Origin: Frankiaceae bacterium
Lineage (GTDB): Bacteria; Actinomycetota; Actinomycetes; Mycobacteriales; SCTD01
Assembly: GCA_016650445.1 (NCBI GenBank)
Contig: JAENVS010000005.1
Location: 160,798 to 224,797 of the forward strand
Direction: 5' to 3'
DNA length: 64,000 nt
Positions 8,106-15,505 of this stretch are shown here, in pieces. The position numbers and the translations under genes were made by a program. A model generated the notes under the pieces. It did no database searches, had not been told where the DNA came from, and worked only from the letters and a program-made list of their open reading frames with translations. The first letter of the stretch is position 1; each line of letters starts with the position of its first letter.

Positions 8106-9623
8106 GTGACGAGGAGCCAGCCGAACATCCTGCTGTTGTTCCCGGATCAGTGGCGCGGCCAGGCGCTCGGCTGCGCCGGCGATCCCAATGCGCACACCCC
8201 GCACCTGGATCGGCTGGCGCGACAGGGAGTGCGTATGACGCGCGGCATCGCGGTCACGCCAGTGTGTACGCCGAGCCGGGCCACTCTCCTGACCGGCCGC
8301 TGGGCGGTGCAGACCCGCTGCTACACGAACGGTCTGTCCTTGCCGGAGCAGATGCCGACGTTCGCGCGGAGCCTGACCGCGGCCGGCTACCGCTGCGGGT
8401 GGATCGGGAAGTGGCACCTCGATGGCATGCCGTGGGAGAAGTTCACGCCGCCCGGGCCGCGACGCGCCGGCTTCGACGGCTACTGGGCCGCCATGAACTG
8501 CCGGCACAAGTACTTCGAGTCCGCGTGGTTCGAGGACCAGCCGTCTCGTCGGACTGCCAGCGGCTACGAGCCGTTCGTGCAGACCGAGCTCGCGGCTGGC
8601 TTCCTGCGGCGCAAGCACACCGCGCCATGGTGCCTCACCGTCGCCTGGGGGCCGCCGCACGAGCCGTACGAGCAGGTGCCCGAGCCCTACCGCGACGCGG
8701 TGGACCCGGCCGCCCTACAGCTGCGCCCGAACGTGCGCGACCTGGCAGCGCCGTGGTCAGACCGAGCCGGCACCGCGCCGGACCGCCGAGCCATTGCCGA
8801 CTACTACGCGGCCTGCAGGGCGCTGGACGATGCCGTCGGCGAGCTGCTCGAGGTGCTGCGCGAGACCGGCCAGGAGGAGAACACCGTGGTCGTGTTCAGC
8901 TCCGACCACGGCGATCAGCTCTGGGGACAGGGCCGGCGCGGCAAGCTGACGCCGTACGCCGAATCCATCACGGTGCCGTTGCTGTGGCGCTGGCCTGACG
9001 GGCTCCCGGCAGGTGCCGTGTGTGACGCTCCGACCGCGCTTCCGGATGTCGCCGTGACGATGTTGGCACTGGCCGGCGCGACCCCCCTTCCAGGGGCGAC
9101 CGGACGAGACGTCTCGGGGGCACTGCGTGGTGAGGATCCAGGGCCGGACCAGGCCCTGATCAGCCAGGTGGTCGCCGCTGTGGGACGCGCAGAGGACGGT
9201 CGCAACATCTGGCGGACAACGTCGTCGGAGTGGCGAGGACTGCGCACCAGAACACACACGTACGCACGAACCTTGACCGGTCCGTGGCTGCTGTTCGACG
9301 ACGCCACCGATCCGTACCAGCTGACGAACCTGATCGAGACGGGCACGGCCGACGAGGATCTGGTCCACGCACTCGACGAGCTGCTCGCCGCCGAGCTGAC
9401 CCGCACCGGAGAGGGCTTTCAGGGGTCGGCCGCGCAACTCGAGGACGACGGACTCGTCGAGCCCTTCCTGGACGAGCTCGCCCAGTGGGGTCTCGCTCGT
9501 CAGCTGCCGAGCTCTGACCAGTCCAGCCCTGGGTCATCGGGGCGGGTCGCGTCGGTGGGGTCCGCCCACCGCGTTGTCGGCACCAGCGGGAACCAGCCCG
9601 GCCTGCCGGGATCCCGGTCGTAG
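8106..9623 (+). CDS. sulfatase (type I, formylglycine-dependent)
   Basis: About 505 residues from GTG 8106, chosen because GAGGGG lies 5 bases upstream. The longer ATG 8058 start lies inside the operator. The N-terminal QPNILLLFPDQWR is the usual sulfatase opening with the first metal-binding acidic residue. CTPSRATLLTGRW carries the CxPxR sulfatase motif, whose cysteine is converted to formylglycine. FSSDHGDQLW supplies the second metal-site Asp/His pair. The enzyme removes sulfate esters from a sugar or glycan. No signal peptide is visible, so it probably acts inside the cell on imported sulfated sugars. Its last 124 bases overlap the 3' end of the convergent dehydratase gene. No formylglycine-generating enzyme is encoded in the window. 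Confidence 0.9.
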   Translation: MTRSQPNILLLFPDQWRGQALGCAGDPNAHTPHLDRLARQGVRMTRGIAVTPVCTPSRATLLTGRWAVQTRCYTNGLSLPEQMPTFARSLTAAGYRCGWIGKWHLDGMPWEKFTPPGPRRAGFDGYWAAMNCRHKYFESAWFEDQPSRRTASGYEPFVQTELAAGFLRRKHTAPWCLTVAWGPPHEPYEQVPEPYRDAVDPAALQLRPNVRDLAAPWSDRAGTAPDRRAIADYYAACRALDDAVGELLEVLRETGQEENTVVVFSSDHGDQLWGQGRRGKLTPYAESITVPLLWRWPDGLPAGAVCDAPTALPDVAVTMLALAGATPLPGATGRDVSGALRGEDPGPDQALISQVVAAVGRAEDGRNIWRTTSSEWRGLRTRTHTYARTLTGPWLLFDDATDPYQLTNLIETGTADEDLVHALDELLAAELTRTGEGFQGSAAQLEDDGLVEPFLDELAQWGLARQLPSSDQSSPGSSGRVASVGSAHRVVGTSGNQPGLPGSRS

Positions 9624-14246: not shown

Positions 14247-15505
14247 GAATCACGGAGGTCCGGGGACGACGGGTGTGGGACTCCCGCGGGCGACCCACCG
14301 TCGAGGTGGAGCTGACCTGCCAGCAGCACGTCGTGCGGGCGATCGCACCGGCGGGTGCCTCGCGCGGCTCCGCGGAAGCACGCGATCGGCGCGACGGGGG
14401 GAGCCGGCTCGGCGGCTGGGACGTCACGGAGGCCGTCGCCGCGGTCAACACCGAAGTCCGCGACGCCCTGCTCGGCGTGGACCCGACGGACCAGGCCGGG
14501 GCGGACGCGGTCCTCGACCACCTTGACCCGACACCCACCCGGTCCCGGCTCGGCGGCAACGTCACGACCGCGACGTCGCTCGCCGTGCTCCATGCCGGAG
14601 CGGCACTGTCCGGCGTCCCGGTGTGGACCTACCTCGGGCGGCAGCCGTCGGCGCTGCCGCGACCGGAGGTCCAGATCATCGGCGGTGGCGCGCACGCCGC
14701 AGGCACTGTCGACGTACAGGACTTCATGGTCGTGCCGCTGTCGGCGCAGACCATGGAGCAGGCGCTGGTCGACGTCGCCGAGGTCTACCTCGGAGTGGGT
14801 ACGGCGCTACGAGCCCGGGGCCGGGTCAACGGAGTCGCGGACGAGGGCGGCCACTGGCCGCATGTCGACAGTCACGAACAGGCGCTCGAGCTGCTCGTCG
14901 AGGGCATCGAACGGGCCGGCCTGGTCCCGGGAGACGACGTCGCCATCTCGCTCGACCTCGCCGCGAGCGAGCTCGCCGAGGGGACCGACTACGTGCTGGC
15001 AAGCGAGAGCCGTCGGCTGAGCCGCGCGGACTGGCTCGACCGGCTCGGGGACTGGTGCAGCGCCTTTCCGATCGTCGCCCTGGAAGACCCGGCCGGGGAG
15101 TTCGACCACGACGGCCTGCGGACCGCGACAGAGCGGCTGGCCACCGGCGTCGATGGCCGTCGACGGCTCATCATCGGTGACGACAGTGTCGTGACCAGTG
15201 CGGCCCGGATCACCGAAGCGGCGGCTGCCCATCGGTGCAACGCCGCACTCATCAAGGTCAACCAGGCCGGCACGGTGACAGCAGCGCAGCAGGCGGTCGA
15301 TGCCGCCCGGGCGGCTCACTGGGGCGTAGTCGTGTCGGCCCGATCCGGCGAGACCGAGGACGTCAGCGTCGCGCACCTCGCCGTCGGTTGGTGCGCGGAT
15401 CTGGTCAAGGTCGGGTCCATCACGCGCGGGGAGCGCACCGCGAAGTGGAACGAGCTGCTGCGCATCGCGGAGGCGACCGGCCTCGGCCTCACGCCTCCGT
15501 TCTAG
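14243..15505 (+). CDS. enolase paralogue (phosphopyruvate hydratase-like)
   Basis: 420 residues from ATG 14243, overlapping the kinase stop. The N-terminus MRITEVRGRRVWDSRGRPTVEVE is the classical enolase opening (strand plus SRGxPTVE loop), and PAGASRGSAEA is the mobile catalytic loop. Active-site residues are present: E in ADEGG, metal ligands D in SLDLAAS, E in ALEDP and D in IGDDS, the base K in LIKVNQAGT, and SARSGETED. It therefore looks competent to interconvert 2-phosphoglycerate and PEP. The protein is divergent, with DEGGHWPH where housekeeping enolases have DEGGFAP. Its position in a sugar-acid operon next to a kinase indicates a specialised role rather than glycolysis. A related 2-phospho-hydroxy acid could be the true substrate. 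Confidence 0.87.
   Translation: MRITEVRGRRVWDSRGRPTVEVELTCQQHVVRAIAPAGASRGSAEARDRRDGGSRLGGWDVTEAVAAVNTEVRDALLGVDPTDQAGADAVLDHLDPTPTRSRLGGNVTTATSLAVLHAGAALSGVPVWTYLGRQPSALPRPEVQIIGGGAHAAGTVDVQDFMVVPLSAQTMEQALVDVAEVYLGVGTALRARGRVNGVADEGGHWPHVDSHEQALELLVEGIERAGLVPGDDVAISLDLAASELAEGTDYVLASESRRLSRADWLDRLGDWCSAFPIVALEDPAGEFDHDGLRTATERLATGVDGRRRLIIGDDSVVTSAARITEAAAAHRCNAALIKVNQAGTVTAAQQAVDAARAAHWGVVVSARSGETEDVSVAHLAVGWCADLVKVGSITRGERTAKWNELLRIAEATGLGLTPPF

Follow-up and report, generated by a model that had tools for sequence, protein, structure and literature searches.

An APH-fold kinase paired with a variant enolase: a predicted route from sugar acids to phosphoenolpyruvate in a Frankiaceae operon and related loci

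Among the described systems closest to the one considered here is the non-phosphorylative diketo pathway (Route III) for L-fucose, L-rhamnose and D-arabinose. It uses a dehydratase, a 4-dehydrogenase of the short-chain dehydrogenase/reductase (SDR) family with an arginine triad, and an FAH-family hydrolase with a catalytic dyad, and its enzymes take L-sugars among others; in the portions of the two sources consulted, the acid released is lactate or glycolate and no kinase or enolase is named (PMC11199699, PMC6336799). Here we analyse an operon in a 64,000-nucleotide (nt) stretch from a Frankiaceae bacterium (GCA_016650445.1, contig JAENVS010000005.1, positions 160,798-224,797 of the forward strand; hereafter the window) that carries the SDR and FAH families of Route III and couples to them an APH-fold kinase and a variant enolase. 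Among the titles and abstract openings listed in a literature search, in which subscription journals were sparsely covered, none describes an APH kinase-enolase pair. The folds and the pathway logic are known; the enolase subfamily and its kinase partner are without description in the literature searched.

From the sequences, we are inclined to think that the operon would oxidise and split a 2-keto-3-deoxy sugar acid to pyruvate and a glycerate-type 2-hydroxy acid, and that the kinase and the altered enolase would turn this acid into phosphoenolpyruvate (PEP). A dehydratase of the MLE type would yield the 2-keto-3-deoxy acid, the SDR would oxidise its C4, and the FAH protein would hydrolyse the C3-C4 bond to give pyruvate and a C4-C6 acid; the kinase would phosphorylate the 2-hydroxyl of this acid, and the altered enolase would remove the C3 substituent of the 2-phospho acid to leave PEP. 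Every activity, substrate and product in this chain is predicted. The acid is most simply glycerate, and the altered residues on the leaving-group side of the enolase may leave room for a 3-substituted glycerate. Our inclination concerns the whole chain as it would run in the window operon; the likelihoods attached below to individual substrates concern the pair alone and do not require the upstream steps.

The gene order, overlaps, families and residue states given here, as well as the tight conservation of the pair, were computed in this analysis. The operon lies on the plus strand (10868-15505) and has five genes: a GntR/FCD transcriptional regulator (10868-11569, start codon approximate; PF00392, 79 bits; PF07729, 71 bits), the SDR, a predicted 2-keto-3-deoxy sugar acid 4-dehydrogenase (11566-12309), the FAH-family protein, a predicted 2,4-diketo-3-deoxy acid hydrolase (12306-13208; PF01557, 197 bits), the kinase, whose predicted reaction is phosphorylation of a glycerate-type acid at its 2-hydroxyl (13248-14246; PF01636, 70 bits), and the enolase paralogue, predicted to eliminate the C3 group of a 2-phospho acid (14243-15505; PF00113, 227 bits; PF03952, 130 bits). 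ATGA overlaps occur at three of the four junctions (GntR/SDR, SDR/FAH and kinase/enolase), and 39 nt separate the FAH gene from the kinase gene. The FAH and enolase frames are nested in longer listed open reading frames and were translated from the starts given. Pfam assigns SDR, FAA_hydrolase, APH, and Enolase_N with Enolase_C to these proteins, and MR_MLE_N/C to an acid-sugar dehydratase of the enolase superfamily that is encoded divergently from the operon and is a predicted member of the route (9500-10810, minus strand; PF13378, 164 bits); it scores 137 bits with a glucarate dehydratase model, far under the cut-off, and its nearest solved chains are 3vdg and 4it1. An earlier, sequence-only reading of this DNA had placed the dehydratase in one operon with the SDR, FAH, kinase and enolase genes. 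Its open reading frames at 11566-12309 and 13248-14246 (plus) and 9500-10810 (minus) are borne out, the FAH and enolase frames translate, and the plus-strand run of four genes is confirmed; the dehydratase, however, is on the opposite strand, and the GntR/FCD gene had been missed.

The enolase paralogue scores over the NCBIfam enolase cut-off (TIGR01060, 373 against 300 bits), and the window genome holds a second, housekeeping enolase. When aligned to solved enolases and to the housekeeping copy, the paralogue has Asp (D160) at the position of a catalytic Glu and Ala (A366) at that of a neighbouring His. We take the replaced residues to be those numbered E167/E168 and H369/H373 (E167 and H369 in Escherichia coli); His373 also lines the pocket of the leaving hydroxyl. 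The base K338, the acid E201 and the metal ligands D238, E281 and D313 are kept, as are R367, S368 and K389 (the substrate-site Arg, Ser and Lys) and H151. The paralogue thus shares with canonical enolase both Pfam domains, the metal ligands, base, acid and substrate-site residues, but differs in E167D and H369A, in ten further separating columns and in its branch of the tree. The sequence-only reading had credited it with full catalytic residues, which is incorrect at these two positions. In the parts of the sources consulted, the general acid of yeast enolase is Glu211 (PMC4450660), and the Glu163 Ala mutant of Mycobacterium tuberculosis enolase is among the non-functional ones (PMC10619443); by its numbering, Glu163 would be the equivalent of position 160 in the window protein.

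The substitutions are not peculiar to the window. Among enolases at kinase loci, the window's own included, the catalytic Glu position is Asp in 72 of 73 and Asn in one (one more row was unreadable), and the His369 position is Ala in 68, Gly in four and Cys in one. The protein-database matches listed are all D/A (120/120), whereas 36 of 36 housekeeping enolases, taken as the best match per genome with sequence loci obtained for 30 of the 44 rows of the phylum enolase scan, are E/H. Eleven kinase-linked second copies were read, two of these rows being pieces of one broken gene, and have Asp with Ala, Gly or Cys. Position 366 is Ala in 105, Gly in five and Cys in three of 113 D-type rows; because these rows were chosen by their Asp, they are not evidence for it, and the unbiased count is the 72 of 73 from kinase loci. 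Twelve columns separate D-type from housekeeping enolases (17, 110, 144, 147, 160, 199, 205, 366, 382, 390, 392 and 402), of which 160 and 366, the two catalytic positions, are situated at the leaving group, and 199 and 205 lie on either side of the acid Glu201. In a 151-row tree, made by a quick method and rooted at the midpoint, one branch (SH-aLRT 98) sets every row with D or N apart from those with E/H or E/E; the D and N rows fall into two groups with support, one of 99 and one of 15. Judged from alignment and tree, the D160/A366 enolases are an enolase subfamily of their own; most of the annotated records consulted carry the name phosphopyruvate hydratase. A simple enlargement of the pocket by A366 was considered and dropped as proof, because A205W goes along with it in 98 of the 113 D-type rows and may refill the space.

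Two further observations concern enolase copies. A third type, E/E, with Glu at the His369 position, is present as two identical copies on plasmid NZ_CP120472.1 of Haladaptatus sp. DYSN1 (49905-50735 and 611476-612306; L124 and L127), which also carries a kinase-linked variant. In the genome of Ramlibacter terrae (L048, L140, L141; G299), the kinase-linked enolase matches as two pieces in different frames, as does the PEP carboxylase, so that frame errors in the assembly are likely.

The variant enolase is tied to the kinase across genomes. The best 80 of 256 kinase relatives were kept as loci, and the variant enolase is adjacent on the same strand in 68 (one strand, match ends less than 400 nt apart), elsewhere in the locus in six and absent from six; four of the last six have less than 400 nt of contig remaining downstream. 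Within the phylum, the kinase is present in three of 296 genomes, and a second enolase over the cut-off in three of 40, which are exactly the kinase bearers, each with the enolase beside the kinase. The variant is an extra copy: all seven kinase-bearing genomes checked (G000, G006, G021, G296-G299) also hold the housekeeping enolase. Among plasmid records with an enolase match at E <= 1e-80, the kinase is present in 17 of 17, 111-5906 nt away, and the residues, read in five of them (L085, L086, L087, L090, L091), are all D/A. Kinase-bearing plasmid records number 32, 15 of which have no enolase match at that threshold; in all four of the 15 that were examined (L083, L084, L088, L089), a more distant enolase is beside the kinase. 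Because the pair co-occurs across loci, phylum genomes and plasmids, judged from gene neighbourhood the two proteins very probably work together.

The pair ranges over Actinomycetota, Pseudomonadota and one haloarchaeon, and in Paracoccus and Roseibium the same four families as in the window are found rearranged, in the order kinase, enolase, FAH, SDR. The sequence-only reading had suggested a search for the kinase and enolase next to FAH and SDR genes. The pair proves to be widely conserved, but FAH and SDR are rare partners, occurring together within 6 kb in four of 89 loci, and the whole four-gene operon was rejected as a conserved unit. Since the pair is adjacent in most loci and SDR and FAH genes are rarer, the conserved unit is the kinase-enolase module, which likely ends in PEP and is plugged into several pathways.

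The other genes within 6 kb in the 89 loci suggest what those pathways might be. A CtBP-like D-2-hydroxyacid dehydrogenase is found in 31 and a PanE-like reductase in 21, with both in two and either in 50; SDR genes are found in 17 and FAH genes in 12. The D-2-hydroxyacid dehydrogenase and PanE families make D-acids. In genomes of this kind, a 2-keto-acid reductase of one or the other type would supply the pair with its substrate, and for this reason we propose that the module is a general exit to PEP for D-2-hydroxy C3 acids. Sugar-type loci have neither reductase within 6 kb; they include Devosia with an IlvD/EDD dehydratase, L074 with UxuA and a lactonase, Paracoccus and Roseibium with FAH-SDR and sugar ABC genes, and Haladaptatus with MLE dehydratases. 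HpaD-like extradiol dioxygenases and CtBP-like reductases occur in Rhodococcus, Rhizobium and Arthrobacter clusters, together with FAH genes in those of Rhodococcus and Arthrobacter. TauE/SafE-type exporters in 10 loci were not accepted as a sign of sulfite release, being confined to two groups of related loci (Ramlibacter-type and Xanthobacteraceae-type), where they stand amid other lineage-conserved genes.

PEP carboxylase is near the kinase in three loci, namely two Rhizobium plasmids, where genes for PEP carboxylase, the CtBP-like reductase and the kinase stand in series, and a Microvirga locus (L015), whose genome (G300; L142) encodes a full-length PEP carboxylase in the kinase cluster and a second full-length one elsewhere. 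A PEP carboxylase beside the kinase points to PEP, rather than an analogue, as the product. The serine cycle contains a segment of hydroxypyruvate reductase, glycerate 2-kinase, enolase and PEP carboxylase. The Rhizobium clusters resemble it in having reductase, kinase, enolase and PEP carboxylase genes, but the kinase is of another family, the variant enolase is on the opposite strand, and VOC, ADH and cupin genes are alongside.

The window SDR and FAH proteins bear out the Route III assignment that the sequence-only reading had given them. Compared with 8XWK, the SDR keeps Arg148, Arg192, Arg214, Thr183 and Gln215 as R145, R188, R206, T180 and Q207, and it has the complete Arg triad of type 1 L-2-keto-3-deoxyfuconate 4-dehydrogenase (L-KDFDH); Trp252, which contacts the C6 methyl in that enzyme, is not kept and is I244 in the window protein. 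Elsewhere, the triad is full in L074 and L069 and incomplete in Roseibium L087 and four Devosia loci; in L086, it is incomplete in one tested SDR, which has a second SDR beside it. The window FAH protein carries the His-x-x-Glu dyad (His101/Glu104) of Route III hydrolases, as described in the part of the source compared (PMC6336799). Its best NCBIfam match is the 2,4-didehydro-3-deoxy-L-rhamnonate hydrolase model NF053535, at 160 bits and under the 500-bit cut-off. The three arginines and the dyad point to a predicted cut that yields pyruvate and a C4-C6 hydroxy acid, which by carbon count would be glycerate if the substrate is a hexonate.

The kinase belongs to the APH family (PF01636, 69.7 bits against a gathering cut-off of 23.2) and gives weak Fructosamin_kin and TCAD9 matches as well. 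The motif H196-x-D198-x4-N203 and residues D215, E217 and K50 are invariant in 57 of 57 aligned sequences. In the Pfam search, it lacks PF02595 and PF13660, the domains of glycerate kinase classes I and II, and has no match at E <= 0.001 to the P-loop family PF00485 of class III. Its predicted reaction and pathway position are like those of the glycerate kinases of classes I, II (MOFRL) and III, but its family is outside these three classes, among which, in the part of the source consulted, APH proteins are not included (PMC2063504); this agrees with the sequence-only remark that no described APH-fold glycerate kinase was known.

Which acid the pair handles is the question on which the readings divide. 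Plain D-glycerate is possible, though we think it less likely than not: the FAH enzyme would free D-glycerate, the kinase would give 2-phospho-D-glycerate, and the enolase would be an ordinary, merely divergent phosphopyruvate hydratase. Counting carbons, a 2-keto-3-deoxy-hexonate cut in this manner yields glycerate, the sugar, aromatic-type and PanE contexts have glycerate/hydroxypyruvate as their simplest shared node, and the usual partners are D-type reductases; the lack of both class I and class II glycerate kinases in four of 12 kinase-bearing genomes searched is neutral or mildly favourable. The enolases themselves speak against it, with Asp for Glu in 72 and Ala, Gly or Cys for His in all 73 of those at kinase loci, and a spare 2-phosphoglycerate enolase would be pointless beside the housekeeping copies. 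Furthermore, the window genome's own class I glycerate kinase, together with its housekeeping enolase, could already bring D-glycerate to PEP, which weakens the glycerate reading, and the plain 2-phosphoglycerate reaction is doubtful because both substitutions alter needed residues and, in the portion of the source consulted, the Glu163 Ala mutant is non-functional (PMC10619443). The sequence-only reading had the hydrolase product converted to PEP through a plain 2-phosphoglycerate enolase. That the kinase and the enolase are functionally linked and that the end product is likely PEP is upheld, whereas such an enolase is not supported, since the catalytic residues are not all kept. An L-glycerate freed from an L-sugar acid would explain why a dedicated kinase and a dedicated enolase are needed at once, the housekeeping enzymes being D-specific. 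L-sugars are among the substrates of Route III enzymes, according to the consulted portions of two papers (PMC6336799, PMC11199699), and the window SDR has the L-KDFDH triad. We nevertheless regard L-glycerate as quite improbable, in that the commonest partners belong to families that make D-acids and the base Lys338 is unaltered.

A 3-substituted glycerate, for instance 3-O-methyl-D-glycerate from methoxypyruvate or a 6-O-methyl hexose, would account for where the enolase has changed, and we consider it unlikely but less so than L-glycerate. The kinase would act on the 2-hydroxyl and the enolase would expel an alcohol to leave PEP; the separating columns 160 and 366 are by the leaving group, 199 and 205 flank Glu201, the base, metal and phosphate residues are intact, and the acid Glu that would protonate the leaving group is retained in the window protein. 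Ring cleavage by the HpaD-like enzymes of the clusters in Rhodococcus, Rhizobium and Arthrobacter could yield a substituted pyruvate. On the other hand, the annotated neighbours include no gene specific for O-methyl groups or for methanol oxidation, for which no dedicated search was made; A205W may occupy the room vacated by the His; the placement in the active site covers four of the twelve separating columns (160, 199, 205 and 366); and it is less parsimonious to assume one rare substrate for contexts as different as sugar, aromatic and PanE. Stated more generally, and with equal reserve, the kinase and D160/A366 enolase could form an ATP-driven beta-elimination module: once the 2-hydroxyl of a 3-substituted lactate is phosphorylated, the enolase would release something that is not water, for example methanol if the acid is 3-O-methylglycerate. 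In favour of 3-sulfolactate, with sulfite as the leaving group, are a sulfatase gene next to the window operon (8058), another in Roseibium L087 and the TauE/SafE-type exporters; sulfatases, however, cut esters and not C-S bonds, the exporters are restricted to two groups of related loci, and the protonating Glu is retained though sulfite would not need it, so that we give this substrate very little credence.

Returning to the proposed chain from a 2-keto-3-deoxy sugar acid to PEP, several findings weigh against it. E167D and H369A hit residues that canonical enolase needs; a class I glycerate kinase is encoded in the window genome, and eight of the 12 kinase-bearing genomes searched have one of class I or II. 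SDR and FAH genes are seldom found together near the pair, none of the queried partner genes is within 6 kb in 25 of the 89 loci, and the queries used brought up no FAH gene near either the Devosia or the L074 clusters. Of the three PEP carboxylase loci, L015 shows no enolase in the 20 kb available. Finally, the most distant pair seen, on Enterobacter chuandaensis plasmid NZ_CP097174.1 (L089, 7193-17826), joins a 36% kinase relative to a back-to-back enolase gene, whose product is annotated as hypothetical and has D160 and G366 but Lys for the acid Glu201, and not every such pair can therefore run the same reaction. The pair is followed by genes for a D-2-hydroxyacid dehydrogenase, an aminotransferase, an iron-containing redox enzyme and an MFS protein, and the locus looks like a biosynthetic cluster. 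The trio of reductase, kinase and variant enolase is thus kept there, though the acid residue is lost, and this pair may run another reaction.

Two more window genes could belong to the route. The sequence-only reading had used an SDR, a candidate sugar 1-dehydrogenase (7249-8025, minus strand; aldose dehydrogenase model 234 bits against a cut-off of 341), and an SMP-30 lactonase (48767-49645, plus strand; PF08450, 272 bits) to complete it. This was not confirmed: the lactonase is 33 kb away, and the link is only suggested, by L074, where a lactonase, an SDR 51% like that at 7249, a UxuA-type dehydratase, an SDR, the kinase and the enolase all stand together. A PhyH-type Fe/2OG dioxygenase gene (47976-48770) overlaps the start of the lactonase gene. 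The sulfatase gene noted above (8058-9623) adjoins the dehydratase gene, and the one in Roseibium L087 is likewise near the same four-family set. Near the operon are also two GH38-type alpha-mannosidase-like genes (1657-5097 and 19925-22984), with ThuA and Gfo/Idh genes. Several window proteins are of the DUF4185/DUF5005 type (40508-41608, 45580-46824, 49581-51428), and a DUF4185 gene (2782-3810) is near the kinase-enolase pair in L003, the window's nearest genome relative; we take members of DUF4185 to be D-arabinan hydrolases.

Enolase is usually regarded as a single-function housekeeping enzyme, and the present analysis describes a widespread second subfamily with two altered catalytic residues that is tied to a kinase. 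It would represent either a new entry route to PEP with a further glycerate kinase family, or an enolase that expels a novel leaving group. If the beta-elimination module is real, it would break an ether linkage, supply PEP and serve sugar, aromatic and other pathways in Actinomycetota, Pseudomonadota and haloarchaea. Metabolic models may also carry wrong annotations for second enolase copies in genomes of this kind.

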